Source: a virus. From it: 39,234 nucleotides of DNA. The notes beneath the pieces were generated by a model. That model had not been told where the DNA came from and ran no database searches. It saw only the letters and a list, made by a program, of their open reading frames with translations. Positions 9,220-28,423 of this stretch are shown here, piece after piece (within the stretch, counting starts at the first letter, position 1; every line of letters starts with the position of its first letter). The translations under genes were made by a program, and so were the position numbers. The DNA lies in the IMG/VR virus record IMGVR_UViG_3300022214_000014, positions 1 through 39,234 of that record; one strand, 5' to 3'.

Positions 9220-9674
9220 TACGGTCCCCCACCAAAGACTTGCCTGCCGGTTGAAATGCCACTACCCAATTGACCGAGTATTCCAAGAAAGCCTGACGTC
9301 TTCAGCGTGGACCGGTTGCTTCGCAGTATGCCTATCTGTCTATCGATACCGGAGCGACCCGTAGCCAGGTTCAGACGAATGTTGGCAATGTCTTCATTGG
9401 CCACCTTGAAGTTGTACTGCCTTGCGGCAATCAGCGAAGGTGAAGCGAAGGCATCAATGCCATTGGCAAACGCACCGATCTCGTCATTCGCTTCGCGAAG
9501 CTCTCGAAGCCGCTGGTTTTCCTGATCCAGCGCAATCAATTCCTCGGCTTGTTTTTCTTCCTGCAACTGTCGCTCTCGTTCATGCGCATCGCGGCGTTGC
9601 TGGTCAATATCAATAGCTGTGCCGACAGCCGTAGCACCAAGAGCCAGGTAATAGAAAGTTGCTCCACCGTCCAT
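9219..9674 (-). CDS. Internal virion protein A, T7 gp14-like
   Basis: A 151-residue protein: a short hydrophobic N-terminus (ATFYYLALGATAVGTAI, residues 5-21), a long Glu/Gln/Arg-rich helix (24-60), a conserved-looking middle containing FASPSLIAARQYNFKVANEDIANI, and a Gly-rich tail (GILGQLGSGISTGRQVFGGG). This architecture is typical of gp14-like internal virion proteins, which insert in the outer membrane after ejection. The start overlaps the tail tubular B stop as ATGA. Confidence 0.75.
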   Translation of the reverse strand: MDGGATFYYLALGATAVGTAIDIDQQRRDAHERERQLQEEKQAEELIALDQENQRLRELREANDEIGAFANGIDAFASPSLIAARQYNFKVANEDIANIRLNLATGRSGIDRQIGILRSNRSTLKTSGFLGILGQLGSGISTGRQVFGGGP

Positions 9675-12549: not shown

Positions 12550-12834
12550 CTAAGTCTTGACGTAGACAGTGACTGTTGCTGCATTGTCAGCAGAACTGAC
12601 AACCGCAGAGTCACGGACCACCGTGCCACCGATAGCGGCAGAAATCAGAATCTGATCTCCTTGGCGCAGAAAATTGGTATAGGTATTGAAATACCCAGAC
12701 GCAACAATCGTTGCCAGCGCATCGGTTGACTTGTATGCAAAAACGCTAACCGTGCCAGCATGGATGCGGTTCATGTTCGCAGCACTGAACGCACATGGAA
12801 GGAATCGAAGCAGATACGAGATTATATGTTTCAT
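12550..12834 (-). CDS. Small capsid-associated protein with hydrophobic leader
   Basis: A 94-residue protein with a GGAG ribosome site 8 bases before ATG 12834. The N-terminus MKHIISYLLRFLP is one of the six shared leaders in this genome. The body (residues about 21-94) has the pattern AYKSTDALATIVASGYFN...LRQGDQILI, seen in small proteins downstream of capsid genes in marine podoviruses, which are likely decoration or stabilising subunits. It lies 2 bases after the capsid stop and ahead of a terminator, so it is probably expressed at high level with the capsid. Decoration role inferred. Confidence 0.65.
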   Translation of the reverse strand: MKHIISYLLRFLPCAFSAANMNRIHAGTVSVFAYKSTDALATIVASGYFNTYTNFLRQGDQILISAAIGGTVVRDSAVVSSADNAATVTVYVKT

Positions 12835-12836
12835 AA

Positions 12837-13703
12837 TTACGTCTCCGTTGAGCGAATACGATATCCGCCCAAATTATCGATAAGGCACGCCTGCATCGAC
12901 ATATAACCAACTGCCAGATGCGCTTGCTCCTTACCCTGCCACGTGAAGTCCATCGAAACGTCTGATCCAGAAGCATGACCAACTGCTGACTTGTGATAGG
13001 CAACATTCTGGCGAACACCGCCAGTCAAGGTCAAACCAGAGAACGAAAAGACGTTAAACGAGAACCAGTTCTTTGCTGAAAAACCAACCTTCGGAAACGG
13101 AAGGTCGGATTCAGGAACGTAATCCAGAGAGGCGAACGGCGTTAATCCCATGAGGTCTGTCCAGCCCTGCGGAGCGACGGCAAGAAAACGCTGACCATCA
13201 TCAGGAACATCACCCTCGCCCATGAACTCGAAAGCTTCTTCGATCTTGGGCTGTGTCACAACACCCGTCGCCGTGGTTTCCCCGGTGAAGGTATCCGTGA
13301 TTGCGGTAATGTCTGCGTCTGATGCGCGACCCAATGCAGCAGCGATGGAACTCGTTACTGCGGCGCGTTCGTCATGCTCAATCTTGAGCTCATCGAGTTT
13401 ATCAATGAACTCGCCACCGTAACGATCGACCAAAGTACATTCGACGTTCGTGTGAACGAGATTGAGAATTGGAACCTGACCGCCTCGGGTCTTGGTGCCA
13501 GCGACACCCTTGCCAATCTTCTGAAAGGTTGTGGACTTACCTACCACGTTGGTCTTCCGCCTGACAGTGTTGAGTAACTTGGAGCCCATGCGCTGATACG
13601 CAAGATGCACTTCGCTCTCGAACTGCTTGGTGAAAGCAACGTCGATCGAATTGTCCTGGGTCATTGGAAGGAGAAGACCCAAGAAAAAACGAAATAGGTT
13701 CAT
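12837..13703 (-). CDS. Major capsid protein
   Basis: A 288-residue protein. After a leader (MNLFRFFLGLLLP) and a second Met at residue 14, it shows the podovirus HK97-like coat pattern: AFTKQFESEVHLAYQRMGSK, VVGKSTTFQKIGKGVA, KIEHDERAAVTSSIAAALGR and a C-terminal hydrophobic domain (Phage capsid family, PF19821-like). The ribosome site CTAGGAG lies at ideal spacing to the first ATG, identical to that of gene 23470-23976, which argues that the leader is translated. It is downstream of the scaffold, with a hairpin in the 5' gap. An N-terminal extension on a coat protein of this family is not what I expect. Confidence 0.85.
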   Translation of the reverse strand: MNLFRFFLGLLLPMTQDNSIDVAFTKQFESEVHLAYQRMGSKLLNTVRRKTNVVGKSTTFQKIGKGVAGTKTRGGQVPILNLVHTNVECTLVDRYGGEFIDKLDELKIEHDERAAVTSSIAAALGRASDADITAITDTFTGETTATGVVTQPKIEEAFEFMGEGDVPDDGQRFLAVAPQGWTDLMGLTPFASLDYVPESDLPFPKVGFSAKNWFSFNVFSFSGLTLTGGVRQNVAYHKSAVGHASGSDVSMDFTWQGKEQAHLAVGYMSMQACLIDNLGGYRIRSTET

Positions 13704-13776
13704 CGCTTTTCTCCTAGTAGATTGAGGTACCGTTTCAGGTTGTCTCTATCTTCTAGCCGGATTCGATTGTGCCGGT

Positions 13777-13818
13777 TATCCGGGTCGTGGCTAGTAATAG
13801 CGGCCTTCGACCCGGATA
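13777..13818 (-). promoter_or_regulatory. Hairpin in the leader of the capsid gene
   Basis: A perfect 11-bp inverted repeat (TATCCGGGTCG at 13777-13787, complement at 13808-13818) with a 20-base loop lies in the 125-base gap between scaffold and capsid, one of the few real gaps in the operon. No T-run follows on either strand, so it is more likely an RNA processing or stability element than a simple terminator. It could let capsid mRNA be more abundant than the upstream message. Confidence 0.55.
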
Positions 13819-13828
13819 GTAGACTGGT

Positions 13829-14596
13829 TTACTTGCGGTTGTAAAGCCGCTGATACCCTTCCTGCACCTTTTTGATAAATACCGGGTCTTTCTCGCGCCA
13901 GTAGCGCGGGTCATTTTGCATGTTGCGAAGCTCGCCCAACGTAAGTTGATCGCCTGGCGGGGATCCCTCAAAGCTACCAGGACCCGATGTTTTCATTAGC
14001 TTTTCCATCGCCTGAATTGCTTCCGCGGTACCGAGAACAGGACTTAATGCGGAAATTTCGTCAGCAGATAACCGTTGCTCAAGCCAGTTATTGACCTTCA
14101 AAATACGGTCTTTGCCGTAGTCGCCAAGCTTGGCTATTTCATCTGCCAGCTTCGGCATAGTGGACATTTCGTTTTTTATGTACTCGGCAATAGCACCGTC
14201 AACGTCTTCCTGCTTCATGCCGTGAGCCTTGGCAAAACCGAAAAACCACTTGATCAGCGGATCGTCTTCGGTTAGGCCAAGCTCCATACCGTCAGGAAGC
14301 TCAATGTCCGGCTGCTTCAGCTCATACTTTTCAGGCGCTGACGCCTGCATCTCCTTAATGACCTCGGCTTTCAACTCCTCGGTCTTGCTACGAATCTTGC
14401 CCTCAAGATCGGTGTACGCCTTGGCCATGACCTCGGCGCGAGGCTGTTTCACATCTGGGTTCCAGAACTTCTCTGGGCACCAGTCTGGCCTGCCGTCCGG
14501 GTCCGATCCGCCAGGGTTGGAATTGCCTTCTGGCGTTGGAGCTGGCTGTGTTTCACGTGGAACAAGCAATAAAAGCAGGCGAATCAATAATTTCAT
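13829..14596 (-). CDS. Scaffolding protein
   Basis: A 255-residue acidic, Pro/Gly-rich protein upstream of the capsid gene. RPDWCPEKFWNPD (about residues 38-50) matches the scaffold signature RPDWLPEKFW of T7-like phages. Helical charged segments follow, with a basic C-terminal tail (VFIKKVQEGYQRLYNRK) that in this family binds coat protein. The N-terminus MKLLIRLLLLLVP is a shared leader and precedes a low-complexity linker (RETQPAPTPEGNSNPGG). A hydrophobic leader on a scaffold, usually soluble and reused, is odd. The ribosome site is GTGAGGA. Confidence 0.82.
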   Translation of the reverse strand: MKLLIRLLLLLVPRETQPAPTPEGNSNPGGSDPDGRPDWCPEKFWNPDVKQPRAEVMAKAYTDLEGKIRSKTEELKAEVIKEMQASAPEKYELKQPDIELPDGMELGLTEDDPLIKWFFGFAKAHGMKQEDVDGAIAEYIKNEMSTMPKLADEIAKLGDYGKDRILKVNNWLEQRLSADEISALSPVLGTAEAIQAMEKLMKTSGPGSFEGSPPGDQLTLGELRNMQNDPRYWREKDPVFIKKVQEGYQRLYNRK

Positions 14597-14898
14597 GGTT
14601 TCTTTTCCTCACCGTGTTTAATACGAGTCTCAATAATGCCCATCAGCCAACGGGCACCTTCATGGTAGGTAATGATATTCGGGTCTGTGCCCGGGGCCAT
14701 CACCTGGTTGGTTGTAATTGACCGAAGGTAATCACGCACAAGCTGGCCGGCGCCGCCACGAAAAACAATGGCGAACGATTCATTCAGATTGTGTTCGGTC
14801 TTGGGTGGCCTTGAAAACCCATCCGGTGCAACATACTGTTTTCGCTTTGGTGTGGTTTCCTTCGCTGGCCGTGCGTACCTCGTTACGTCCTCACTCAT
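14593..14898 (-). CDS. Bbp19-like small head protein
   Basis: A 101-residue protein between portal and scaffold, overlapping both by 4 bases. A basic, Pro-rich N-terminus precedes a compact domain: FAIVFRGGAGQLVRDYLRSI, then YHEGARWLMGIIETRI. That arrangement resembles the Bbp19-like phage domain. Its function in virions is not established; the conserved location between portal and scaffold suggests a role in head assembly. Confidence 0.6.
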   Translation of the reverse strand: MSEDVTRYARPAKETTPKRKQYVAPDGFSRPPKTEHNLNESFAIVFRGGAGQLVRDYLRSITTNQVMAPGTDPNIITYHEGARWLMGIIETRIKHGEEKKP

Positions 14899-16445
14899 TG
14901 CCCTATTTGTGGTTGGGCTGGAAGCCCGCCTGGTGCTGTTTGTGCGGCGGCCTCTGCCATCCCGTCCATAACCTCCTCACGTTCTGCCTCACCTCGTACC
15001 AATCTTGCCGGTACTTCCCATTTTTCCTGAAGTTCATCAACAAGTTCGTTCTGGTCGATGAATAGCTGTGCTTGCTGCGGCCCAAGGATGCTGAGGATAT
15101 CGCCGGAAAAGCCTCGAATGCGCTCAATTTCCTCGAATCGCTGCGCTCTGGCGATAGGAGATTTCGACACAATTCTGACCTCACGGCCGTCAAGCTTCGG
15201 CATTTCAAGAACGCCCTGCTTGGTGAGCAGCCACACGATGCGTTGAAGCATCGGGTCAAGCCATTCCGTTTTTAGCCTCGATGCTGGCCCCGCCGTTTGT
15301 TCCGCAAGGTTTTGCATACGCGCCTGTATTTCGGTGGCCGATCTTGGTGTTTGATCGAGCGGTCCGAGATTTTCGGCAAATAGGGCTTTGCGTATATTTT
15401 CCTGCTGGCTGGCAATGACGATATCAGCAACGTTGAAGTTTCCAGGACTGTCGGTTCGCTCGAGACCTCTGCTGTCAGCAGGTCTGGCATATACGGCTCC
15501 GGGTACGATCTCAACATTGTCGACATTAATGCTCCCATCATCATCAACTTGCCAGATACCGGAAATCGCCATTTGCGAGTTTTCCAGAATCATTTCAGTG
15601 ACAAGGTTAACCGTGCGAATAGCAGGCAATGCATTGATCAGCGGACCCCGGCCATAACATTCGCCAGCAGCAACCGACCAGCGGGGCGTCACGTAAGGCC
15701 GCGATCCAAGTCCTTCCGTGGCATTGTCAACAACAAGGGATTTGTCTTCGGATGCTACTACCTGATATAGGTATTTCTGCGTATTCAGCTCGTCCCAATC
15801 ACGATATGACGCCTCAACAAGATTTGTTACCGCATCAGGATTGCCGCGCAATTTACCCTGCAATTGCTCGCTGATAGTGGCGTCAGCCCAGATTGTTTTC
15901 AGGTCGGCAATACGAACATTTTCCCGAACCCGGAACACACCATCAACCATCTTGAATGGGCCGGTATCCCAATAGGTATGGGACTGTGGCACACATTTGA
16001 AGTTAATCAAGCGGCCATCACGACCGTCTTCAATAATCATTGTGGACCAGCCGATGCCGATATCGGTAAGCAGTTCCTGCGCCTCATTGACGAAGTTGGA
16101 ATTCGCAAGAACGTCCCAAATGAAATTCGATACCTCGTTCAGTTCCTGTTGAAGCTGCTTTCGCTTGGCTTGATCGCGGACTTCAGGACCTGGCTCGAAC
16201 AGATACCACATGGAATGCTGTGGCACCACGCCCTGCTGTAGGCGCGAAACAAACTCAGACAGCGCCACAAGCGCGGTTTCGTCGTAAATGTATTGGGTTC
16301 GTTCTTCGCCGGGAGTGGACTCGTAGAAGCCTTCCCTGGCCGGCAGCACGTAATCGTAGATATCCTGCCAGAGGTCTTCCCAATTGCTTCGCTTTGATTT
16401 CGCGCTTGCGAAGCGCTTCAGTAGCGCCTGCCCGGAGAGTTTCAT
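14895..16445 (-). CDS. Portal (head-tail connector) protein
   Basis: A 516-residue protein of the T7 gp8-like connector family: WEDLWQDIYDYVLPAREGFY near the N-terminus (residues 22-41), FVSRLQQGVVP, the central domain FKCVPQSHTYWD, GRGPLINALPAIRTVN, and the helical RSATEIQARMQNLAEQTAG. Length matches T7 gp8 (about 536). It forms the dodecameric ring through which DNA is packaged and ejected. The gene overlaps its neighbours by 4 bases. Confidence 0.9.
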   Translation of the reverse strand: MKLSGQALLKRFASAKSKRSNWEDLWQDIYDYVLPAREGFYESTPGEERTQYIYDETALVALSEFVSRLQQGVVPQHSMWYLFEPGPEVRDQAKRKQLQQELNEVSNFIWDVLANSNFVNEAQELLTDIGIGWSTMIIEDGRDGRLINFKCVPQSHTYWDTGPFKMVDGVFRVRENVRIADLKTIWADATISEQLQGKLRGNPDAVTNLVEASYRDWDELNTQKYLYQVVASEDKSLVVDNATEGLGSRPYVTPRWSVAAGECYGRGPLINALPAIRTVNLVTEMILENSQMAISGIWQVDDDGSINVDNVEIVPGAVYARPADSRGLERTDSPGNFNVADIVIASQQENIRKALFAENLGPLDQTPRSATEIQARMQNLAEQTAGPASRLKTEWLDPMLQRIVWLLTKQGVLEMPKLDGREVRIVSKSPIARAQRFEEIERIRGFSGDILSILGPQQAQLFIDQNELVDELQEKWEVPARLVRGEAEREEVMDGMAEAAAQTAPGGLPAQPQIGQ

Positions 16446-16654
16446 GTGCCTAGCTGCGTCTGGCCACTGGTGAAACCCTGAAAGCCACCGGACAGCAACG
16501 AGAAGATACCGCGCAGCTTCTTGCGAAAGGCCAGTTGGTCACTGAAAGCGCGGGTTGTTTCGCGTGCGTTTTCAACCCGAAGCTGGCGTTCACGCTCAAT
16601 CGAAAGCTGCTCAAGTTGTTTGGATGCCTTCGATTGTTTCTCTTTCTTGCTCAT
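16442..16654 (-). CDS. Small charged protein between terminase region and portal
   Basis: A 70-residue protein from ATG 16654, chosen because GGAGGG lies just upstream; longer frames to 16696 lack this. It is Lys/Glu/Arg-rich and helical in the first 45 residues (MSKKEKQSKASKQ), and Gly/Ser/Phe-rich at the end. It overlaps the portal start by ATGA. No family recognised; a head or packaging accessory is possible from context only. Confidence 0.65.
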   Translation of the reverse strand: MSKKEKQSKASKQLEQLSIERERQLRVENARETTRAFSDQLAFRKKLRGIFSLLSGGFQGFTSGQTQLGT

Positions 16655-17099
16655 GCTCGTCCCTCCAACAGTAGACGACCTCACCGCCAGCCGCAATGAG
16701 TGTACGATATAATCCGTAGGGTGTCAGTATAACCTTGTTACCAAGGCCAAGAACCCGGCTGATCATGTTCGAGCAGTAGGTAATCAGGCCACCACGGCAT
16801 GGTTCCTCGGTGGGCCAAAACCGCACAACCGTGCCCTTTGCCTGACCAACATGACTGATCATCGCCTGTGCCTCGAAGTCGAACAGGACCATGCAATCGG
16901 TACGATATTGGCGCCAGTCAATCATGATCCAGCGGTTCGACCACTCGCAAAACTGCATGGCAAAGCAATGCCGGAAACCCTCGCGGGTACGAAATACCCA
17001 ATCCCACCAGTTGCGATCAGGGCGCTCGATGAAGTAAATCAGATATTCGCGTGGCGGGAGCGACTCGCGGCACGGCGCTTCTTGCCGAACACCGGCCAC
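16611..17099 (-). CDS. Conserved phage protein beside terminase, possible NlpC/P60-like fold
   Basis: A 162-residue protein from GTG 17099, overlapping the terminase 3' end by 61 bases. A later start is possible, but no ATG lies before residue 47. It is rich in Trp and Cys. Visible pieces are GFRHCFAMQF, RWIMIDW, then YCSNMISRVLGLGNKVILTPYGLYRTL. The C-terminal element (a Cys followed by LG...TPYxLY) recurs in phage proteins near terminases and resembles the Cys helix of NlpC/P60-like enzymes, with His in the early GFRHC. Catalysis is not demonstrated. The gene ends inside the next gene (44-base overlap). Confidence 0.6.
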   Translation of the reverse strand: MAGVRQEAPCRESLPPREYLIYFIERPDRNWWDWVFRTREGFRHCFAMQFCEWSNRWIMIDWRQYRTDCMVLFDFEAQAMISHVGQAKGTVVRFWPTEEPCRGGLITYCSNMISRVLGLGNKVILTPYGLYRTLIAAGGEVVYCWRDEHEQERETIEGIQTT

Positions 17100-18577
17100 T
17101 TCGTCTTCGCTTGAGCTTTCGGCTTTGATGATGATTGTCCTACGGTTAATGCCCTGCCCTCGCCAGCGCCAAGAAACAGGTATTGCAGCGCGTCATGAGG
17201 ATGCGAATACTTGTTTTTGGCCGGGCGTTCTTCGTAACGCGGAGCGCCATTGACGTTGATTCGACGCCGGCAATACCCGGCCACGAATCCCTTCTTCAGG
17301 GTTGCGCATTTCGGACTGACCAGCAGCGCCGGGCGACCGTCAATCATACGGTCAATGACCGCCTTGACGCACTCGATGCGCACCGCTGGATCATTGGTCG
17401 GCGCAGGCTTTGCAATGATGCCGTGCTGCTTCAGAATCTTGAACGCGCTGGCCGTATCCTCTCGCCCAGGTGTGCGTTGATCACCAGCCGGATCGCCAAA
17501 GATGCGAACTTCCTGATCGACGCTTGATGTGAGTTCCTTGATCTTGGCCTTGATTTCGCCGGCAAAGGCTGGCGTCGATAAATCATCAGCCACGATTTCA
17601 TCGAGGATGTTCCACTGACCACGCGCATAGCGTTGCGCAAATATCGCCGCTGGCTGAAAGCCGAAGTCGAGCCCGACATACAAGGTACGGTTGGGTGACG
17701 GATACAGGATTTCCTTGGCCACGTGCACCTGGTCGTTGAAGTCCGGATAAATAACTTTGCCCTCACTGACCGTGCCAAGGCGGTTCATCACGTAGACGTC
17801 GATCCAGTCCTTGCTCTTTCCGGTGATGATTTTGTTGTAGTAATCCGGCGTGAGATTTTTGCGGTTCTCGGCCTCGTCGCTGATCGTGTAACCGATCACA
17901 TCGCCATCGACGTTCTTTTCCTCGACCATCGCAGGCGGCTGCGTGAAGAAACGCCAGCCTTCCGGCTTTCTCAACATCAGCACTTCCTGCGGCGTCATGA
18001 ACTCCGGTATAGGAGCGTCACCCGACATAATTGGCCACCAGTGATCGTCTTCCGGCGCATTGGTGTCGGCAATCATGCCGTACCAGCTCGGCCCACCCTC
18101 ACGCATGGAAGGGAACCGGCCGACGCGCATGGTGCAGGCATCGATGATGGCCTTTGGCATTTCACGTGCCTCATTTGCCCACACGCCGGTCAACTCGAGC
18201 GACAGCAGTTTTCGGATATCTGCCTCGTCATCCAGCGCCAGAAAGATCACCTCGAGGTCCACATCGCCTACCATGATGCGATGCGTAAACGGCACGCCCC
18301 ACAGGAACGGGCCATAGACATCTTCCGGAAACCAGTCCAGCCAGGTCTTGATAGTGGTGGTTTTAAGCTGCGGGCCGGTATTGCGGATCACCGCCCATCG
18401 GCTGCGTCGTATGCCTTGCTCATTGGGGGCTTGCTGCAAGGCACGACGAAAGACTTCAACCGCCGATGCGACAGATTTCCCTGATCCTACCGGCCCGCGA
18501 ATACCACGAAAGAAGTCGTTGCACTTCATGTATTCACGAAGTACCACACCATCCGGCTTGTACTTGAACTCAGGCAT
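17039..18577 (-). CDS. terL: Terminase large subunit
   Basis: A 512-residue packaging motor. ATPase Walker A is GPVGSGKS (residues 28-35), with LTGVWANEARE (about 129-139) at the Walker B position. The C-terminal nuclease domain has LYVGLDFGF, IFGDPAGDQ and SHPHDALQYL (about 458-467), supplying the acidic metal ligands of the RNase H-like fold. It cuts concatemeric DNA and pumps it through the portal. The last 30 residues are basic and low complexity. It overlaps the small upstream gene by 8 bases. Confidence 0.93.
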   Translation of the reverse strand: MPEFKYKPDGVVLREYMKCNDFFRGIRGPVGSGKSVASAVEVFRRALQQAPNEQGIRRSRWAVIRNTGPQLKTTTIKTWLDWFPEDVYGPFLWGVPFTHRIMVGDVDLEVIFLALDDEADIRKLLSLELTGVWANEAREMPKAIIDACTMRVGRFPSMREGGPSWYGMIADTNAPEDDHWWPIMSGDAPIPEFMTPQEVLMLRKPEGWRFFTQPPAMVEEKNVDGDVIGYTISDEAENRKNLTPDYYNKIITGKSKDWIDVYVMNRLGTVSEGKVIYPDFNDQVHVAKEILYPSPNRTLYVGLDFGFQPAAIFAQRYARGQWNILDEIVADDLSTPAFAGEIKAKIKELTSSVDQEVRIFGDPAGDQRTPGREDTASAFKILKQHGIIAKPAPTNDPAVRIECVKAVIDRMIDGRPALLVSPKCATLKKGFVAGYCRRRINVNGAPRYEERPAKNKYSHPHDALQYLFLGAGEGRALTVGQSSSKPKAQAKTKWPVFGKKRRAASRSRHANI

Positions 18578-18854
18578 CCTCTTTCATGATCCGTTTGCCA
18601 TTGAGTCCGACTATCTGCGTCGGCAGAAAAAACTTCTTCTGGCTAAGAAAGCCACGCGATTCACCCATTTGTTTCAACTTGTCCACTGTCGATGGCAGCA
18701 ATGCATCGATCAGCTTGTCGCACTCGCGATCGGTAAAAAAAGCTTTTGTCTGCTCAACGGTAAATCCTTCTTCCCTGGCATACACCTTGCGGACGATATC
18801 GCGTAGCTGTTGCAGTTCCGCCTTGGTCAACTTGTGAAGATTCTCACCCGGCAT
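18570..18854 (-). CDS. Small protein upstream of terL, unknown
   Basis: A 94-residue protein with ATG at 18854, overlapping both neighbours. The N-terminal helical half (LTKAELQQLRDIVRKVYARE) precedes KAFFTDRECDKLIDALLP. I do not recognise the family. Position directly before terL is that of a small terminase, but there is no clear helix-turn-helix. The better HTH candidate for that role is at 29683-30063. Confidence 0.65.
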   Translation of the reverse strand: MPGENLHKLTKAELQQLRDIVRKVYAREEGFTVEQTKAFFTDRECDKLIDALLPSTVDKLKQMGESRGFLSQKKFFLPTQIVGLNGKRIMKEDA

Positions 18855-19155
18855 CGACCGGCTCCACGTCCGGTTGCGCTTTATGTTGCTGCCGATCGCG
18901 CATCATTTCCTCGGCTTCCTCGTCGTGAATTTTTTGAATGTGCTCGCGTGTTTCACGAATCTCTCGGTTCACCCTGGCGCTCATGCTCTCGCCACCATTT
19001 CGCACATGCTGTGCGCGAGCGACTTTCTCATGGCCATAGGCCACCAGTTCTTCAAAGCGTTTGCACATCTGCAGCATTTCCTGGCTGATGTTCAAACTTT
19101 CAATTTCTGGCGTCAGGTCTTTGGCGATTGCGTTGAGCCTTCTCTTAATTTCCAT
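18844..19155 (-). CDS. Helical coiled-coil protein, unknown
   Basis: A 103-residue, very charged, almost entirely helical protein (MEIKRRLNAIAKDL...). Heptad-like spacing of hydrophobics over residues 15-85 suggests a coiled coil. It sits two genes upstream of terL and overlaps the next gene by 11 bases and the metallopeptidase gene by 43. Function unknown; a packaging or head-assembly partner is possible from location. Confidence 0.6.
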   Translation of the reverse strand: MEIKRRLNAIAKDLTPEIESLNISQEMLQMCKRFEELVAYGHEKVARAQHVRNGGESMSARVNREIRETREHIQKIHDEEAEEMMRDRQQHKAQPDVEPVDAG

Positions 19156-19505
19156 AACACTCGTTCCTCTGCGGTTAGCGATTCTGTCTGCGCTTTTCGC
19201 GCCTCGACTTCGAACGGATTGTTTGCGTATCCATATCGAAGCGAATAGTAAAAATACAACAGATAGAATCTAACGAAGCCCAGCCGGGCAATTTGGTAAA
19301 CGTGTTGCATTTCGTGGCGAAACAACCATTCAGGTACGTCCCATGGCGCATCGGCAAACATCATGGTTCGGCCTATGACAATGCCACGCACCTGTTGCTT
19401 TTTCATCCATTCGACGCCGTAGCGAATCTTCAGCCTAAATAGAACGGGCTCTCGCCCTGCTTGCCGAACGGATTTTGTAAGTAACGATGAGATCATTGTA
19501 TCCAT
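19113..19505 (-). CDS. Small zinc metallopeptidase-like protein (HExxH)
   Basis: A 130-residue protein. WLFRHEMQHVYQ (residues 60-71) contains the zincin motif H64-E65-x-x-H68, and NPFEVEA (96-102) offers a downstream Glu as third zinc ligand. Between them is an aromatic hydrophobic segment (about 75-90, GFVRFYLLYFYYSLRYGY). The ATG at 19505 overlaps the end of the repeat adhesin gene by 71 bases; an internal Met (residue 34) is another possible start. Substrate unknown. In this genome it lies between the adhesin block and terminase, so virion protein processing is one hypothesis. Confidence 0.65.
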   Translation of the reverse strand: MDTMISSLLTKSVRQAGREPVLFRLKIRYGVEWMKKQQVRGIVIGRTMMFADAPWDVPEWLFRHEMQHVYQIARLGFVRFYLLYFYYSLRYGYANNPFEVEARKAQTESLTAEERVLWKLREGSTQSPKT

Positions 19506-22500
19506 CCTTGATGAATGTGAACTCGACTGTGACGTTGATTTCGCCAGTGTCTGTCACAGGTATAAAATCAGGCGCAAAGACTTCTGATTCAGATGAACAA
19601 GAATACCCATATTGCGTGCCGTTTGCAGCATCGAAGGCGAGATTGTCTGTGAATGTACCCACCTTGCCACTACCAGAACTGCCGCCTGCGTCGTTAATAA
19701 CGGATGAAACGCGACGTATTTTTACATTGTCCGGCCTGGTATTTAGATTAAATACCGTGCTGCCTGCGGTATTCGCATAACTGCCCTGATCAATTACAAA
19801 ACCATAGAACGATCCTATTGTCTTTATCAGGCAATCCGATGCGGAATTTTCCAGAACAACATTAACATTCGAGCCGCCAAGCGCTGAACCATCAGAGAGG
19901 TCTTGGAATGTACCGTATGCGTCGCCAATCAGGAGTGGTGACTGTGCGCCATTGTAGGTCGGCGCAAAGTCGATAATCGTTCGTGCGGCCAGGTCGCCCT
20001 TGAAGACGATAGTTCCTCGAGGTGCAAAGTTGGCAACCACCTGCAAGCTGCCAAAGCTGTTGATGATGGCGGCAATCGCGTTTTGCCTGCCATACGCTGT
20101 TACGCTGGATACGACATTGATCGTGCCCCTGGCAAACTTGGTGGCATCGCGGGTTCCCCTGGCCGTTGTCAGTGAGGTGAAGTTGATGAGCCCGAAAATC
20201 TCTTTCACGGCTGCACTATTGCCAATTGAGTAGAAGCCGCCCTGCGAGTTGTTGTACAGCTCGAGCGAGCCATAGGCATTGCGGATAATGGCTTTCTTCT
20301 GACCGTCGATTGTGCCAGGACCAATCTGGCCAAGCGTGCCGAAGATCGCCGCCTGCGCAAGCATGGCACTGGTACCAATGGGCAGGTTTCTGCCAAGCGC
20401 TGTCAGGCTTCCAGTGAACCGGATAACTGTTGCTCGAGCATAGACTGCGCTGACACTGAGCGTCGATGTCAATGTGATTGTTGCTGATGCGCGCTTCTGG
20501 TTCAGGTCGCCACCGAACGCGCTCATCGTTGCGCCAAGCATTGTTATCGTAGCGATTGGTCGTATGCACGAAACACGTGTAAACTTGGCTTGCGATAACT
20601 GTGCAGCGAATGTGATAGTGGCATAAGCGTAGAACGTGCCAGCTCCGTCACCGCTTATTGTTCCTGCTGCCCTAAGCGATGGCGCTGCAACTAACTCATA
20701 AATCTCATATGCATCACCATCGTCCCATCCTGATGGCGAATCCCAAAAAACCAAATTACCAAATGCTGTAACGATACGGCCTTCGCGATTCTTTGTAACA
20801 TTAACAAGCCTCTGGCCATCCAGATCACTTGGAAACACCGTGGTTGGATCAACCAGGTAATCGAAACCACCATCATTAAACCCAGAAAACTGAAGCTGCT
20901 GTGTTCCGCCGAAAGGCTGTATGCGACCCTTTGCAAGAATTCTGTTATTTGTTGGGTCTTCCGTTGCGGACAACGAAAGGCTGATTGTTATTGTGCCACT
21001 TGCCTTTACCGAGCAGAACGACTTGCCTTTACCAAACAGCGTCGCAGTCGCTGTAATGGTTGCTGTCGGAACGACGATGGCTGACGGATTCGTACCATTC
21101 GCAAACAGTGACGATGTTGTTGTGATTGTCGCTTTCGGCTGGATGTTGCCGGATACGGATACAACGGCACCAATGAAGGTGATCGTGCCGAAGGCTCGCT
21201 TGACACCCTGCACGCCAACGCCGGCCAAACTGCCGATCATTGTCGATGTAGCAAACGCGCGAGTTTTTGCGGTTGCTGCAACAGAACCTATTGCTGTCGA
21301 TGTGGCAAACGCGAAGCGTTGAATATCATTGCCAACACTAAGTGTCGCTGTTGCCCGGATTGTGCCGCGCGCTCCTAGCGATGGCGGTGGTCCACGATGC
21401 AGCCATACATAAGCGGCAGGTGCTGGTATTTCATCAACGAATACCGATGTGCTGCCAGCTACAACCGCAATAACGTCGCCGGTGCCTGCGCGAACAGCGC
21501 CGAGAAACGAAATCGTGCCACTGACCTGGACGTTGCCGCTTTGTGCGGAAAGCGAACCAATGGCAGTAATAGTGCCAACCGGGAACTTGACGCCCGAATC
21601 CGAGGTTGCCGCAAGCGAAGCAGAGAAGCGAACAACACCGAAAGCGCGAACAATCGGGCTCGCAATCGTAACCAGGCCAACATTCAGCGTGCGCTGGTTG
21701 CGTGACGGAAATGGCAGACCGACCGAGAACAAGGCGCCAGTTGGCGGTGCTTCTGCGTTTAGGTTGATTCCATTCGCTGCCAACTGACCGGAGAAGGTTG
21801 CTGTTCCTCCGGCCAGTTGGGTTCCACTCGCAGCGACTTGGGCCGAAGCTGTTATTGTTCCGGTTGCTGTTGTCGCGCCATCCTCAATGATTGGGCGCGA
21901 CACAAACGCTGGTATATCGCGATTGTAGTAACGATGCTGTGCGGAGCTAAGAGAAACACCAGACTGGCTTAGTCCGTAAAGACCCACCACATCGGCAATT
22001 GCAAAAAGGGTTCCACGAAATCGCGTCGTAGCTTTTGCGGACCGGAATGGCGAGAGCACGCCGGACAACAATACCGGTTGAGCAACCGCAGGCAACGGCG
22101 GCTGACGCGTAATGATCGGGGTTGTTGGAGCAGGTACCGCAGCACCGAGATTGGTGCCGATTGCGGATAGAGTACCACTGAATGTGGTCGTGCCAAAAGC
22201 GAACGACGCCCCACCGCCAGCAATCAGGGTGCCAATGAAGCTGGTTACCGCAAACACATTACTCGCGCCATCCGCAACCAGGTCGCCGCTTGCCGTACTG
22301 GTACCGAACACTTTGCTGGCCGCAGTTGCAACCAGATCGCCGGCCACAGTAATCGTACCGAACGCCCGAGTGACGCCAGCGCCCTGGCTTATTTGTGCCG
22401 AAAATGTGATGGTTCCGGTTGCTGTAATAGCAGCAACGGATGGAATTGCATTGGCAAATACCGATTGCGGAGTGACCTCATAGAAACGGTGCTGCGCAGA

Positions 22501-23433
22501 AGCAAACGCAACACCGTTGTCTGGCAATGCGACTGGCGCAATATCTCCGGTAGCAATGAGCGTGCCGGTGATCGTGCTGGTACCAAACGCCAGGTTTGCT
22601 GCTGTGGCAGCAACATCACCAATAGCTGTGCTGGTACCAAACGCAAACGATGTTCCACCCGTTCCAGCAAGAACGGCGGTTGCCGTGATCGTACCGGTTG
22701 CCGTTATGTTGCCGGGCGGCAGTATCTCGAAGAATATGCCGACGCACTCATCACTGGCGGCGCCAGTCCAGTCGATTGTCGGGCTGACAGTGCCACCAGT
22801 GCCACCACCAATCAGATCGCCGTAAAAATAGCTATTGTCGGCGGATGTTGCGGTGCCAGTCGCGCCTTCTTGAACCGTATTGAATGATGCGGTAGTTTCT
22901 GAGGATGGATCACCGTCACCACCAAAGAACGTACCAGCAACAACCAGCGTAGAGCCTGATGTTGTTGCGCCAGACAGGGCAACAGTCGTTGCCGCAACGT
23001 GGCCGTTCGTCTCCGTGTCGATGACATTGGTCGCAGCAGCAACACTAGAGGTTTCCGTACCTAGGTAGTTGACGGGAACAACCGAGAGGTTGTCGCCAGC
23101 CCCACCAAGCGTCCACGTTATGCTGCCAGTCTCAACCGTGGGGTTGACCAGACCGAAGGCGTAGACCCTGCAATCACCCGTGCCGGCAGAATCATCAACG
23201 CTCGTTATGAGCGTCATTGCCTCATCACCACTCCAGAACACATCTGAAATGGTGTTGTCACCAAAGCAGTGGAAGGTAACGACCAGCAGCGTCGTGCTGG
23301 TATCAACCGTGTGCGACGCCGTATCAATTATCGGCGTCGCGGTATCGGTTGTCGGTGTGTTGGTACTACCGCGGGTTATGTCCATCGGCAAAAAGAGGCT
23401 CAAGACTTTCCGCAGAAAATCTCTGAGCCTCAT
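19435..23433 (-). CDS. Giant repeat adhesin or fibre protein
   Basis: A 1332-residue protein. It has leader MRLRDFLRKVLSLFLP followed by a second Met at 17; a beta-rich N-terminal domain (17-240); then about 25 degenerate 18-20 residue repeats (242 to about 1150) of pattern FGTxTxxGxLxAxG; and a C-terminal beta domain. Two inserts share an SAQHR[FY]Y motif (near 320 and 545). Such Gly/Thr/Ala repeats favour a beta-solenoid or fibre. It is likely a host-contact structure. The repeats alternate with nonrepeated spacers, suggesting growth by duplication. Start choice: the first ATG is weakly preceded by a GAAGG site. Confidence 0.7.
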   Translation of the reverse strand: MRLRDFLRKVLSLFLPMDITRGSTNTPTTDTATPIIDTASHTVDTSTTLLVVTFHCFGDNTISDVFWSGDEAMTLITSVDDSAGTGDCRVYAFGLVNPTVETGSITWTLGGAGDNLSVVPVNYLGTETSSVAAATNVIDTETNGHVAATTVALSGATTSGSTLVVAGTFFGGDGDPSSETTASFNTVQEGATGTATSADNSYFYGDLIGGGTGGTVSPTIDWTGAASDECVGIFFEILPPGNITATGTITATAVLAGTGGTSFAFGTSTAIGDVAATAANLAFGTSTITGTLIATGDIAPVALPDNGVAFASAQHRFYEVTPQSVFANAIPSVAAITATGTITFSAQISQGAGVTRAFGTITVAGDLVATAASKVFGTSTASGDLVADGASNVFAVTSFIGTLIAGGGASFAFGTTTFSGTLSAIGTNLGAAVPAPTTPIITRQPPLPAVAQPVLLSGVLSPFRSAKATTRFRGTLFAIADVVGLYGLSQSGVSLSSAQHRYYNRDIPAFVSRPIIEDGATTATGTITASAQVAASGTQLAGGTATFSGQLAANGINLNAEAPPTGALFSVGLPFPSRNQRTLNVGLVTIASPIVRAFGVVRFSASLAATSDSGVKFPVGTITAIGSLSAQSGNVQVSGTISFLGAVRAGTGDVIAVVAGSTSVFVDEIPAPAAYVWLHRGPPPSLGARGTIRATATLSVGNDIQRFAFATSTAIGSVAATAKTRAFATSTMIGSLAGVGVQGVKRAFGTITFIGAVVSVSGNIQPKATITTTSSLFANGTNPSAIVVPTATITATATLFGKGKSFCSVKASGTITISLSLSATEDPTNNRILAKGRIQPFGGTQQLQFSGFNDGGFDYLVDPTTVFPSDLDGQRLVNVTKNREGRIVTAFGNLVFWDSPSGWDDGDAYEIYELVAAPSLRAAGTISGDGAGTFYAYATITFAAQLSQAKFTRVSCIRPIATITMLGATMSAFGGDLNQKRASATITLTSTLSVSAVYARATVIRFTGSLTALGRNLPIGTSAMLAQAAIFGTLGQIGPGTIDGQKKAIIRNAYGSLELYNNSQGGFYSIGNSAAVKEIFGLINFTSLTTARGTRDATKFARGTINVVSSVTAYGRQNAIAAIINSFGSLQVVANFAPRGTIVFKGDLAARTIIDFAPTYNGAQSPLLIGDAYGTFQDLSDGSALGGSNVNVVLENSASDCLIKTIGSFYGFVIDQGSYANTAGSTVFNLNTRPDNVKIRRVSSVINDAGGSSGSGKVGTFTDNLAFDAANGTQYGYSCSSESEVFAPDFIPVTDTGEINVTVEFTFIKDGYNDLIVTYKIRSASRARARSI

Positions 23434-23469
23434 TGTGGTGAGCCTTCTAGTCGATAAGCGGGAAGGTGT

Positions 23470-23976
23470 TTATTCTTCCCACGTGACGGTATAGCTCGAG
23501 CCGTTCGCGTCAACACCCGCCAGGTTGCGACACGACAACTGATCGTTCAAAAGGCCGTTGATCAGCAACCACGGATTGGCCAGTGGCAACACGATGTAAC
23601 CCAAGCCGCCGTGTGCGTTCCAGTTCTGGTTATGCAGCGCAACAGGTTCTGCCGGCAGCACCGGCTCGGTGGTCGCAAAGCCGCGACCGAACTCGCAGAA
23701 CGGCGTGGAATAACCAGGGTGGTGATCTTCCGGCGTGATCGCGGTCAAGGCGCCAACGCCCGCCGTGGTCGGCCTGACCCACCGGGTATGGTAGCCGGTC
23801 GATGTGGTGAGCTCGCCGCCCCAACCAATGCTGAGGATTTTGGCGACGTCGCCGGCGCTGCTGGCGTCCATCGTCCAGTTGTCGGCAGTCAGTGAGGGCG
23901 TGATGCCAGAGTTGGCACCGGAATACGCTGGCATCCTCGGTACGAAAAGCCAGAGCAACTTCATGAAAAACTTCAT
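23470..23976 (-). CDS. Virion-module protein with hydrophobic leader
   Basis: A 168-residue protein with the strong ribosome site CTAGGAG before ATG 23976. Leader MKFFMKLLWLFVPR is followed by Met 15 and a soluble, Gly/Thr/Trp-rich beta-like body (MPAYSGANSGITPSL..., TPEDHHPGY, PFCEFGRGF). No known family. It has the same initiation sequence as the capsid gene. It precedes the giant repeat protein and follows the zinc-binding protein, so a minor structural role, maybe a fibre partner, is likely. Confidence 0.65.
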   Translation of the reverse strand: MKFFMKLLWLFVPRMPAYSGANSGITPSLTADNWTMDASSAGDVAKILSIGWGGELTTSTGYHTRWVRPTTAGVGALTAITPEDHHPGYSTPFCEFGRGFATTEPVLPAEPVALHNQNWNAHGGLGYIVLPLANPWLLINGLLNDQLSCRNLAGVDANGSSYTVTWEE

Positions 23977-23986
23977 TTCTTTTCTC

Positions 23987-24319
23987 CTAGATACCCAGAA
24001 CCCTGCGATTCTGTTGTTTGCGGTAAGCCAGCTCCAGCGCCCTGTCCACTAGCTTTATAAACGGTTCGCAGCCGTGCTGCAACATGCGCGTAAGACAAGG
24101 GCCGCAGACCGGCGCAAAACACTGTCTGCACCAGCCGCCGCCGCCTTCAGCGCGCTCTTTTTTCCATTGCTGTAACTTGATCGTAGCCTGACAGTGCGGA
24201 CACAAAACGATGTCCGCTTCTTCAACACCTTCGTGTGCTGCGCGACTGTCATTCATCAGGTAGCCGGCACCGTCGCTGACGCGGCTGATAATTCGTGAGC
24301 CTGGCGGTATGGCGCTCAT
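23987..24319 (-). CDS. Zinc-binding phage protein with two CxxC pairs
   Basis: A 110-residue protein. CPHCQAT (about residues 40-46), then GWCRQCFAPVCGPC (62-75) and HGC give a zinc-ribbon-like cluster of CxxC pairs, a pattern found in small structural-module proteins of many phages. The start overlaps the adhesin gene 24316-25314 by ATGA. The function is not known; the location among receptor-binding genes suggests an assembly factor or minor virion part. Confidence 0.65.
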   Translation of the reverse strand: MSAIPPGSRIISRVSDGAGYLMNDSRAAHEGVEEADIVLCPHCQATIKLQQWKKERAEGGGGWCRQCFAPVCGPCLTRMLQHGCEPFIKLVDRALELAYRKQQNRRVLGI

Positions 24320-25314
24320 GGCAGGACGATGATACCACCCATTGACAGATTGTTTGACGATGAGCCTGCCGGTCGAATCGCTAGCGTGAACTGCACCTTC
24401 TCAAGATTCGGGTCCGTATTGTCGTGCGTCCAAACGCTCGGCGTGATCAGTCCAGCGGCTCCAACATCGGCCTTGTACGCCAACGCAATCGTATCGTAGG
24501 CAACACCAGCCAGTGATCCAGCACCCTCAGATGCGAACGTCAGACCCGATGGCGTTGTTGGCGCACCAATACTCGATGGCGGTGTCGCGGCAGTCAAATA
24601 GTCGAACAGAATCAGGGCGCAGTTGTCGGTGACGGTCTTAACGCCCGGATTCGCCTTTGTTGTATTGTTATTGGCTACTGCCACCGGGAAATAGCTGATG
24701 TTGCTGGCGGCGAGCGTCAGTGAAAAGGCATCGCCGCCTCCGGTCGAGCTCACCATGTTGAGCACGTCCGTCGCGGAGTGCCCGCCCGCATCAGGACCGG
24801 CATTTACCGAGAACTCCGTTACCACGCCAGCCGATACTGCGATTACCGTGATCAGCGCGCCGCCATCTATCGTAATGACGTCGCTGACCGAGTGACCAGA
24901 CGCGCCGCCAGAGAACGACGCGACGTAGTGTTCCTCGCCCTGATCGTGGATCAGTACATTCACCACGTCCAGATGATCGACGCTGTGCTGGCCGCGAACG
25001 ACGATCATGCTGCCAGACTTTCTCGATGCCACGGCAGTCGTTATGCTGGCCGAACTCTCAGCACCACTGGTCGCCACGCGAGTGAACAACTCGCCATAGC
25101 GATCAGAACCAGCGGACTCCGTCATAACACCCAGACTAGTCCACCCTGATAGCGCGTCGAACGTCGATACCGACGATCCAGACACCGTGTGGAACGCCGC
25201 TAGGTACGCTCGATCACCAGAGGCGTGGCCACTCGGCCAAGCGACCACTGCCGGATCGGCGGTATTTGCTGCGATCCCGTCGTTTGCTGAAACTGCACCA
25301 ACTATGGATACCAT
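24316..25314 (-). CDS. Beta-rich structural or receptor-binding protein
   Basis: A 332-residue, Ala/Ser/Thr/Gly-rich protein with alternating hydrophobic strands, low charge and no clear enzyme motif. Its pattern (SGHASGDRAYLAAFHTVSG, then GWTSLGVMTES) resembles the jelly-roll-like N-terminal domain of the repeat adhesin at 19435-23433 (...TTLLVVTFHCFGDN, AMTLITSVDDS). It ends IVLP. Probably a virion surface or host-binding subunit; no catalytic residues seen. Confidence 0.6.
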   Translation of the reverse strand: MVSIVGAVSANDGIAANTADPAVVAWPSGHASGDRAYLAAFHTVSGSSVSTFDALSGWTSLGVMTESAGSDRYGELFTRVATSGAESSASITTAVASRKSGSMIVVRGQHSVDHLDVVNVLIHDQGEEHYVASFSGGASGHSVSDVITIDGGALITVIAVSAGVVTEFSVNAGPDAGGHSATDVLNMVSSTGGGDAFSLTLAASNISYFPVAVANNNTTKANPGVKTVTDNCALILFDYLTAATPPSSIGAPTTPSGLTFASEGAGSLAGVAYDTIALAYKADVGAAGLITPSVWTHDNTDPNLEKVQFTLAIRPAGSSSNNLSMGGIIVLP

Positions 25315-25322
25315 GACGCCAC

Positions 25323-26507
25323 CTAGAGTATCTGCGCGCCTTCGCGCCGTTGAATGTCGCTGTAAATCCGTATCGGCGGACCTTTTTTAACATTGATTGC
25401 GCGCGCGTAATCATCAGCACTCAGACCCGGAAGAATATAGTTTTCTGCACTCTGATTCACAAACGCTCCAGGTGTAATCACGTTTCCATTCACGTCAGTT
25501 TGAGTCTCTGGCCAATCTGGGTGTGTCTGGAACTTAACCGTTTTCTGGTTGTACCAATAGCCGCTGGTCGGGTCTTGATGCACCTGACCGGAAAGCCCAC
25601 GGAAATCGTAGAAGGTTGGTTGGTAGTAAAGGCCATTCGGACTGGATGAAAAGATCGACGGAGTAGCCTCGGCGTTGGCCTGCGTGTTGAACACGTCGCC
25701 TGCCCAGTGATTGAGATACCAACGCACACCGAAGAAACACTCATCGCGAAGAATCTGACGGCAGTAGTAAGCATCGCCACGAAAGTGACTATTGTTAGCC
25801 CAATGCCCGACCGGAAATACTTGTCGTGTTTGCAAATCAAATAGCGTATCCAGTCCAAGCCCCTTAACTTCCCAACGCAGCCGAGATAAAAATGCATTTT
25901 TATTCGGCAGTGATGTATCAAGTCTATCGGGCCATGTCACTTTGACGCCGACAGAACCTTGACCGGGATTTGTAGTACGCAGTCGATTGACATTACCCAT
26001 GATAGTGATGCCACGCAAAGAGCCGTTTCTGCCCATTGCTCTGCCACCGCCTCCGGTGTCCGTTGCCCACGGCGCATAGGACGGATTTCCGTTACTTGCA
26101 TCCAGATCGTAAAGAATCCCTGCGCCGTTGTGACCGGTAAGATTCTGAAAGTCGATCAGGAAGCCCTTCAAGTTCACGTCTGCCTTCCTGATCGTGAACA
26201 TATTGAAGTTCGGGTCTTGATTCGTCGTGTAGAACACCACCTGCTCGCGTGGATTTCTGAGCGATGTGTGCCCCGGCCCGAAGTTCACACCGCTGCCATT
26301 ATCAAATCCTGTAGAAATCGAGTCGCCGCCAAAGCCCCACACGATCTTCGGTATCGGCCAATCCACCTCATTATTGACCAGATACAAACCAGGCGGTATG
26401 TAACCAGCATGATCGTGCTCGGCCATTGCCTGAACAGCAGAAGCGCTATTCGTGCTGCCAAGAGGATCAGCCTGCAAATCCTCAACCAGGTTAACTGGAC
26501 CACTCAT
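25323..26507 (-). CDS. Pectate-lyase-like tailspike protein 1
   Basis: A 394-residue protein. HAGYIPPGLYLV (about residues 33-44) followed by IPKIVWGFGGDS is the entry of a right-handed beta-helix as found in phage depolymerase tailspikes. The middle contains repeated short strands (VNLKGFLIDFQN, LRGITIMGN). It shares its N-terminal pattern with the next gene, from which it appears duplicated. Likely binds or cleaves surface polysaccharide; catalytic acids cannot be assigned. It overlaps 26504-27562 by ATGA. Confidence 0.7.
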   Translation of the reverse strand: MSGPVNLVEDLQADPLGSTNSASAVQAMAEHDHAGYIPPGLYLVNNEVDWPIPKIVWGFGGDSISTGFDNGSGVNFGPGHTSLRNPREQVVFYTTNQDPNFNMFTIRKADVNLKGFLIDFQNLTGHNGAGILYDLDASNGNPSYAPWATDTGGGGRAMGRNGSLRGITIMGNVNRLRTTNPGQGSVGVKVTWPDRLDTSLPNKNAFLSRLRWEVKGLGLDTLFDLQTRQVFPVGHWANNSHFRGDAYYCRQILRDECFFGVRWYLNHWAGDVFNTQANAEATPSIFSSSPNGLYYQPTFYDFRGLSGQVHQDPTSGYWYNQKTVKFQTHPDWPETQTDVNGNVITPGAFVNQSAENYILPGLSADDYARAINVKKGPPIRIYSDIQRREGAQIL

Positions 26508-27562
26508 GTTATGTTCCCCAGAACCATTACAATATCATTCGCCAGTTGTTCGACAAGCTGTGGCTGTTCGAAGATTGGAAAATTCGTTTCCGGACTATCT
26601 CCGGCGTTCGTTAATTCCAGCTTGTTGTGAGGACCGAAATGAATCGCAACGTGCGAGCATGTTGCTGCCTTTGCAAAGTCCTGCACGCCATAATCCATAC
26701 CAACATTATACGGACCCAAAACGACAGCAGTATAAGTTGTCAACGCCAGTGCAGGATCATTGAAGATATTGCTTTGTGTCTGCATCAGGTTCGAGAACCA
26801 ACTGTGACTTGATGCCGAATCGTAGTAGGCGCGATAACTTTCCGAGTAATTGACATCAACGGTATGCAGCCCTGAGTGCTGGTTATAGCCGGGATTGTAG
26901 GCGCTCACACGCCAACCGTCTTGCGCCTTGACTTGCTCTACCTCACAGCGCCAACCCTCGAACCTTGCACCATTGACGGTCTGGTTAGCGAAATTCACGA
27001 CAACGCCATGCCAGCCACTAACATCATCAACACCAATCTGACTCGCTTCCCCCTGAGTAGCAAAATTCCAGAACCGTCCACCGTACTGACCACCAAGCCA
27101 GTCCATATCAACATTGAAAGCAGCCTTATTGCAATTTGGCGGCAATACGTTCTTGCTATCAAAATTTCCACCAACCCAACTCATGAGGCTCTTGACGTTG
27201 ACAGCATCAACATTAGCAGAAGCAATAAATCGGGACTGTTCACCAAGGCGCTTGAAGTTTTTCCTGCTGGAAATCTCAACGTCCGTCTGCACCCACTTTT
27301 CGCCAAAGCACCAAACCAGCTTCGGCTTGGTTGTGTTACTGAACGTCGCCCCGTACTTGTATTCGCCAGGAGGAATATAGATCGCATGATCGGAGTCGAA
27401 CGCTGCAAGTAACTCGGCGGACGTTTCCGATACGCCGGTATCGTCCGCGTTGAATTTCGTGACAACGTTTCCACCGAGGGCCGCAAAAAAATCGCCGTAC
27501 TGAGGCTGTATGTACGTAACCTCAACATCAGCAATCAGCCCGCCGGTGGAAACAATCGTCAT
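26504..27562 (-). CDS. Pectate-lyase-like tailspike protein 2
   Basis: A 352-residue protein. AIYIPPGEYKYG, then KPKLVWCFGEKW, matches the tailspike-1 entry (IPPGxY ... PKxVWxFG) and the pectin-lyase-like fold. The body is beta-rich with Trp and Asn (GGNFDSKNVLP, WHGVVVNFANQTVNGARFEGW). It probably forms a trimeric spike or a partner of the neighbouring gene product. The ATG abuts the fibre gene's stop (TAG then ATG). Confidence 0.7.
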   Translation of the reverse strand: MTIVSTGGLIADVEVTYIQPQYGDFFAALGGNVVTKFNADDTGVSETSAELLAAFDSDHAIYIPPGEYKYGATFSNTTKPKLVWCFGEKWVQTDVEISSRKNFKRLGEQSRFIASANVDAVNVKSLMSWVGGNFDSKNVLPPNCNKAAFNVDMDWLGGQYGGRFWNFATQGEASQIGVDDVSGWHGVVVNFANQTVNGARFEGWRCEVEQVKAQDGWRVSAYNPGYNQHSGLHTVDVNYSESYRAYYDSASSHSWFSNLMQTQSNIFNDPALALTTYTAVVLGPYNVGMDYGVQDFAKAATCSHVAIHFGPHNKLELTNAGDSPETNFPIFEQPQLVEQLANDIVMVLGNIT

Positions 27563-28423
27563 CTACTGAATCTGAATATCCAGATCGCCGCTGTTGAACT
27601 GCAAGGTGTTGCCAATGTTGATCACCACGTCTGCATCGAGCTGCGTGTACATGAGCACGTTGCCAGTCGCCAGCGTTGCGTTGTCGCAGATCGCCACCCA
27701 TCTGAGAGTACCCCAGTTGGTGGTAACAGCCACAGCGAAAGTATGGTCACCGGAATTACTGCCGGCACCATCGGTTGGTGCTGTGGCAGTCAGCGCCAGG
27801 TGCGCATAGCCACGACTTGAACCGACTTCATTGGTCCAGGTGGACGCCTCGAGCTCGGATTCCACGGCGGTCGAGGTGAACATCGCCAGGTACACCGTGG
27901 TCGGGCTGGTGTAGGCGGCGTTTCGCAACACGTGGTCGTAGAGTTCGTTCGACAGGAAGTTGGAGATTTCGGAACCGGCTGGTTTGAAGTCTGCATCGAT
28001 GTCGCCAATGTTGAACTGGAACTGGTTGCCAACGTTGATCACCACATCGGAATCCAGCTGCGTATACATGAGCACGTTGCCAGCGGTGGATGCGTCCATG
28101 ATGGCCATGTAGCGAATCGTGCCCCAATTGGAACCGGTGTTGACCGGGAAGGTCACCGCGGCCGAGTTGGAACCGAGGCCATTGGTTGGCGCGCCAAAGG
28201 TGATCGCTTGCCTGGCGTAGCCATTGCCGGCTATTTCACCGGTGAGCGTTCCTGCCTCGAGGTTGCCAGTGCTGGCCGTGGTGCCGAACAGTGCCGCGTA
28301 CACCGTTGTCGGGCTGGTATAGGCCGCGTTACGAAGGATGTGGTCGTACAGCTCGTTTTCGAGATAGGTCGAGAACTCGGCCATCGGGAAGAACAGCTTC
28401 AGAATGGATTTCAGGAAATTCAT
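27563..28423 (-). CDS. Fibre-like protein with internal duplication and leader
   Basis: A 286-residue protein. After the leader MNFLKSILKLFFP and Met 14, it consists of two tandem copies (about residues 15-150 and 153-286) of one domain. Each begins NELYDH[IV]LRNAAYTSPTT and ends with LMYTQLD[SA]DVVIN[VI]GN. The unit resembles small phage tail-fibre domains that occur singly elsewhere. Copies diverge mainly in loops (AGTLTGEIAGNGY versus ASTWTNEVGSSRGY). Ribosome site: weak GAGGA. Probably a trimeric fibre or spike base. Confidence 0.7.
   Translation of the reverse strand: MNFLKSILKLFFPMAEFSTYLENELYDHILRNAAYTSPTTVYAALFGTTASTGNLEAGTLTGEIAGNGYARQAITFGAPTNGLGSNSAAVTFPVNTGSNWGTIRYMAIMDASTAGNVLMYTQLDSDVVINVGNQFQFNIGDIDADFKPAGSEISNFLSNELYDHVLRNAAYTSPTTVYLAMFTSTAVESELEASTWTNEVGSSRGYAHLALTATAPTDGAGSNSGDHTFAVAVTTNWGTLRWVAICDNATLATGNVLMYTQLDADVVINIGNTLQFNSGDLDIQIQ

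Follow-up and report, generated by a model that had tools for sequence, protein, structure and literature searches.

An uncultured phage lineage carries, on a set of virion proteins that are otherwise unrelated, a common N-terminal leader: a short, hydrophobic, mostly positively charged peptide that ends in proline. We analyse this leader in one window, the whole 39,234-nucleotide stretch of the virus record IMGVR_UViG_3300022214_000014 (39.2 kb), and in the relatives of its genes. The original prediction proposed a phage-specific, translated leader; amino-acid selection and conservation across a clade of relatives support that claim, and the pattern is real, solid, and stronger than first stated. 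On what the leader means, we place even weight for and against the view that, in this lineage, a general sorting tag that can be transferred between virion proteins has arisen: a short Pro-capped N-terminal helix, prepended gene by gene, that gathers parts at one cellular site, either the membrane or an assembly center.

The late genes of the window lie on the minus strand and encode the terminase, the portal (with the head-tail adaptor family phrog_332), a protein in the scaffold position, the capsid (PF19821), a small protein after the capsid (phrog_18004), tail proteins, a large internal virion protein, fibres, and a holin with 3 transmembrane segments (3TM); the early genes include YqaJ and SSB. 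At the DNA level, the late region has no match in phage records. The leader-bearing phages form a single group, short-tailed and uncultured. Capsid relatives that have no leader come mainly from alphaproteobacterial prophages, Pelagibacter phages, and Vibrio phages, and the nearest of these suggest that the host of the window phage is probably alphaproteobacterial. Two further features of the window deserve mention. Its two ends (1-367 and 38145-38511) share 367 bases at 91% identity, and within this repeat lie two versions of a small gene that have diverged (86-352 and 38230-38508). The internal virion protein (2546-6739, minus strand, 1397 aa) matches the acetyltransferase family phrog_1249 over residues 276-362, a GNAT-like domain within a virion protein that is probably ejected.

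Table 1. Leader-bearing genes of the window and two further genes discussed in the text
Feature	Coordinates	Strand	Leader	Leader coordinates	Remarks
Scaffold-position gene	13829..14596	(-)	MKLLIRLLLLLVP	14558-14596	Leader followed by Pro/Gly/acidic linker
Major capsid protein (PF19821)	12837..13703	(-)	MNLFRFFLGLLLP	13665-13703	
Gene after capsid, probable decoration protein (phrog_18004)	12550..12834	(-)	MKHIISYLLRFLP	12796-12834	
Fibre protein, two Gp80 domains (PF23140)	27563..28423	(-)	MNFLKSILKLFFP	28385-28423	
Late protein of undefined role	23470..23976	(-)	MKFFMKLLWLFVP	23938-23976	
Repeat adhesin	19435..23433	(-)	MRLRDFLRKVLSLFLP	23386-23433	
Late gene without leader in the window	9219..9674	(-)			Starts MDGGATFYY; relative in L007/L008/L021 carries MFDRFLVWVLSRFIP
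Zincin-like gene	19113..19505	(-)			HExxHxxQ...NPxExxA, invariant in clade; candidate leader peptidase, unspecific

All 6 leaders named in the original prediction are present, each behind a purine-rich ribosome site, and its details hold (Table 1). Proline is residue 13 in 5 leaders and residue 16 in the repeat adhesin; a second Met follows the leader at once or after one residue in 4 of the 6, and the scaffold and decoration genes have no usual start Met after it. The sequence CTAGGAG precedes the first ATG of both the capsid gene and the late gene of undefined role. Between genes, the leader DNA is unalike (31-56% identical). To score the pattern, we use a profile trained on the scaffold, capsid, and decoration leaders of relatives only, with the window and all other proteins held out. 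The window leaders score 21.8 bits (late protein of undefined role), 19.3 (capsid), 18.6 (adhesin), 15.6 (scaffold), 13.7 (decoration), and 13.6 (Gp80 fibre). The next-best start in the window reaches 5.5 bits and belongs to a spurious plus-strand open reading frame; other late genes with a Shine-Dalgarno (SD) site score negative, and the portal has no leader. Among 6107 SD-preceded starts of leaderless loci, the best scores 8.8 bits and none lies above; in 2 more background sets scored with an earlier profile (1947 and 4175 starts), the best reach 7.0 and 6.8.

The leader is conserved in a clade of 15 other distinct IMG/VR contigs with capsid identities of 82-90%: it is on the capsid in all 15, and on the scaffold and decoration proteins wherever their genes are covered. 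Close relatives thus retain it, and several copies have no second Met, contrary to the refuting outcome named with the original prediction, homologs that simply begin at that Met. Most scaffolds, 2 capsids (MYLLRFILGLIFPTIQ and MFLLRFLLALFPRQQ), and one Gp80 protein (MRFLKTLLFDIRYLLLRSFLPFAEF) lack a second Met close to the junction; these copies offer no other start, so their leader must be translated. Together, conservation, the copies without a second Met, and the background scores rule out chance or mis-called starts. Two small late genes (16442-16696 and 18844-19155, minus strand) are likewise kept in the clade and absent from 194 leaderless relative loci.

Each carrier has its own version of the pattern. 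All 15 scaffold copies read have a leader, mostly MKYLLxLLWLFxPR(E), with the second Met absent; M1 and P13 are invariant among the 14 aligned. The capsid leaders of the 15 other contigs read M-x-L-L-R-F-L-L-G-L-I-F-P or near, with M1, R5, L8, and P13 invariant among 16 sequences, and the 16 decoration leaders, nearly all of the form ...LLRFLPCAF..., have an invariant terminal LP and next Cys. One-residue deletions in leaders retain the Pro. The Gp80 fibre carries a leader in 4 of 4 clade copies (13-26 aa); the long leaders of some relatives (21-26 aa) score weakly with the held-out profile (2.4-8.8 bits), and we accept them by homology and position, not by score. Both clade copies of the late protein of undefined role have it, the relative in L082/L130 reading MKFLLKFLWLFLP. 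The leader of this late protein matches that of the scaffold residue by residue (KLLWLFVPR), and the match is order-specific (shuffle p 0.0002, 21 comparisons), a likeness that suggests copying from gene to gene or an order-specific constraint. The adhesin leader is absent in L130, the sole relative with a readable adhesin start, and a search of viral contigs with the adhesin found nothing. The gene set that carries the leader differs between genomes: the 9219..9674-type protein has one in L007/L008/L021 only, which indicates that leaders are gained or lost gene by gene.

Comparison with leaderless orthologs shows where the leader was added. Such capsids start MADNTISSSF in L023 and MADNTISTSF in L024 (60% identity), or MSTSIST in EXVC031P, and such scaffolds MSEE... 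or MADE... Decoration orthologs without a leader begin MALDRTKLHR, MALVRANMHR, or MAYSASNLKK, against ...LP-CAFDATNMNR with one; for Gp80, starts outside the clade read MAExSxY (MAEMSNY) and the GP4 fibre (8jou) reads MAAASTY, against ...P-MAEFSTY. Since the first residue of these orthologs falls just behind the end of the leader, the leader was prepended directly at the native Met1. The Gp80, capsid, and scaffold relatives read in phage records are all leaderless, and genome contigs hold no capsid with a leader and no scaffold relative. Pfam profiles that match carrier proteins begin after the leader: the capsid matches PF19821 (Phage_capsid_2) with 170 bits over residues 21-287, against a curated cut-off of 25, and the fibre exceeds the curated cut-off of PF23140 (GP4 fibre, Gp80) over 2 stretches, the best at 17-143. 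The window fibre is a tandem of two Gp80 domains, whereas the GP4 protein (8jou, 140 aa) has one. The predicted capsid structure is unusable (pLDDT 30); the decoration model has no significant match among PDB folds, and its matches in a viral structure library are uncharacterised phage proteins. By sequence, the decoration protein weakly matches chain H ('orf16') of 9eg4 (E 0.38), an entry that also holds the only match of the capsid; we regard this as suggestive only.

The original prediction suggested that the amino acid pattern itself is selected, and the substitution record agrees. Leader pN/pS is 0.37 in the capsid, 0.35 in the scaffold, and 0.40 in the decoration gene, and synonymous sites are unconstrained: synonymous divergence in leader and gene body is 0.60 versus 0.62, 0.81 versus 0.74, and 0.68 versus 0.71, respectively. 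A leader kept by natural selection is real, and one selected as protein is translated. Changes that exchange one hydrophobic residue for another are more frequent in leader than in body (capsid 72% versus 30%, scaffold 59% versus 20%, decoration 52% versus 31%). This excess is supportive only, since leader residues are hydrophobic from the outset and random changes at hydrophobic codons would stay hydrophobic in 62%, 46%, and 61% of cases, respectively.

The 50 distinct leaders that we tabulated (one extra row, L242, is a false positive) are 12-26 residues long, mostly 13. Net charge is positive in 48 and negative in none; mean hydrophobicity is high (0.65-1.48), and the helical moment, generally moderate, varies from 0.22 to 0.71. 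Some leaders of scaffolds and capsids are of near-uniform hydrophobicity and have low moments (0.22-0.27). The model of the decoration protein places the leader in a helix (residues 2-10) outside the folded domain, predicted with low confidence. A Sec-type basic n-region and hydrophobic h-region are present in the leaders. None has a signal peptidase site (small residues at -3/-1); they read L/F/I/V, then Pro, then M, C, R, L, F, K, or T. Nor is there a lipobox ([LVI][ASTVI][GAS]C): decoration leaders end FLPC or LLPC with Pro at -1, and the other junctions have no Cys.

The explanation that we prefer, and hold tentatively, is that the leader is a Pro-capped N-terminal helix and keeps head parts attached to the inner membrane as they assemble. 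The roughly 12 residues would form a short hydrophobic, positively charged helix, capped by Pro and joined directly to the native protein start, that may lie in the inner membrane on its cytoplasmic side. Many weak copies would concentrate scaffold, coat, decoration, and fibre proteins there, and procapsid building would thereby become membrane-bound; the scaffold leader, at the tip of a flexible acidic/Gly/Pro linker, would be placed like a tether. That unrelated folds share one simple tag points to a partner-independent target, of which the membrane is the obvious one. Scores far beyond background, the clade-wide presence on 3 adjacent head genes (with copies that have no second Met), exact N-terminal addition, selection at the protein level, net positive charge, hydrophobicity with a moderate moment, and the low-confidence helix of the decoration model are consistent with this explanation. 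There is precedent for both of its elements: to bind membrane, Escherichia coli MreB requires a short amphipathic helix at its N-terminus, and this helix suffices (PMC3163269), and phage T4 assembles its proheads at the inner membrane (PMC9958956). Against membrane tethering, the low-moment scaffold and capsid leaders resemble a signal h-region more than a surface helix, the portal is leaderless here although it nucleates T4 heads at the membrane, and a membrane-bound coat protein would need release. In addition, mutual binding would serve equally well if the scaffold and capsid are considered by themselves.

In a somewhat unlikely alternative, the leader mediates docking or self-association: the hydrophobic N-terminal helices on scaffold, coat, decoration, and fibre would bind mutually or in a common groove and serve as assembly glue within the head or on its surface. 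The universal carriers are indeed head components (scaffold, coat, and probable decoration protein), a flexible linker tethers the scaffold leader, and leader order is alike in the scaffold and the late protein of undefined role. However, coat, decoration, and fibre proteins occupy different places in the virion, which makes one groove for all unlikely, and the adhesin and the 9219..9674-type protein also carry the leader, each in single lineages.

Alternatively, the leader could be removable, keeping the protein inactive or directing it until maturation, when a cut after Pro would restore the native N-terminus; we consider this unlikely. Exact joining to the native start and the invariant Pro at the junction would suit such a cut, and the window encodes a possible enzyme: the zincin-like gene (Table 1) is found in the clade contigs that cover its region, whereas none of 194 leaderless relatives (by capsid, portal, or scaffold) has it. 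Its product matches phrog_37302 (function undefined) and neither Pfam nor NCBIfam models, and it has homologs in many other phage contigs. Members of this family are also present at 65 further phage loci that have no leader, so nothing links the HExxH gene to the leader, and its candidacy as a specific leader peptidase is weakened. Furthermore, the residues after Pro are unlike those of signal peptidase sites, and the second Met is lost in several copies. Among the window genes searched against PHROGs and Pfam (part of the open reading frames), no prohead protease is recognised.

Co-translational targeting has a low probability in our assessment: the nascent leader would recruit the signal recognition particle (SRP) or membrane-bound ribosomes, and late mRNAs would be translated at the membrane with no stable insertion. 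A very hydrophobic stretch of 10-12 residues behind a basic N-terminus would fit, but it is followed by no site for cleavage or export, and an exported coat protein would be harmful. Finally, we consider it highly improbable that conservation acts on the nucleic acid, whether as a codon ramp or as a hairpin that conceals the ribosome site, with Leu, Phe, and Pro encoded incidentally: the decoration gene shows slightly low mean SD accessibility (z -0.56), and its SD CGGAG faces a leader CTCCG in most relatives (12800-12860 of the window, minus strand), but in the capsid (z +0.98) and scaffold (z +0.8) genes synonymous variants leave the SD less open than the natural sequence does, and these accessibility results, the synonymous divergence and constrained nonsynonymous change described above, and the dissimilar leader DNA of different genes lead us to mostly reject it. 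As an observation in its own right, the CGGAG/CTCCG pairing is a possible local hairpin for translational control.

The usual explanation for head assembly in tailed phages is specific protein-protein contacts. If the leader is a general sorting tag, a phage would, in addition, address its parts to a destination, much as targeting peptides do in cells; the assembly site of such heads becomes testable, and the tag could be borrowed to position proteins inside laboratory bacteria. The original prediction called the leader possibly undescribed, and apparently it is: no precedent appears in the libraries and open papers searched. Amphipathic anchors are known as such; a leader shared by unrelated virion proteins within a single phage lineage is apparently new, as far as those libraries and papers reach.

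The leader can be set beside several known systems. Sec signal peptides comprise a basic n-region, a hydrophobic h-region, and small residues at -3/-1. The leader has the first 2 in common with them, and differs in the Pro at its junction, the missing small residues, and its place on cytoplasmically assembled proteins. The HK97 delta domain and the N-terminal regions cut by T4-type prohead proteases are likewise extra N-terminal segments on coat or core proteins, but these are long or have defined cleavage motifs, whereas the leader has about 12 residues ending in Pro. The Pelagibacter phage EXVC031P Hodr and alphaproteobacterial prophages share the order and families of scaffold, capsid, and decoration genes; their proteins, in contrast, begin at the native Met without a leader. 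The MreB helix resembles the leader, itself a putative helix, in being short, basic, N-terminal, and on a cytoplasmic self-assembling protein, of which many weakly binding copies attach to the membrane; it belongs to a single protein, has no terminal Pro, and is more amphipathic and less hydrophobic (PMC3163269), whereas the leader is on unrelated virion proteins and its membrane binding is putative. The T4 prohead shares with our preferred explanation the building of a tailed-phage head on the membrane, but its attachment is via portal and chaperone (gp20/gp40, YidC), with no shared leader (PMC9958956), whereas here it is the portal that is leaderless.
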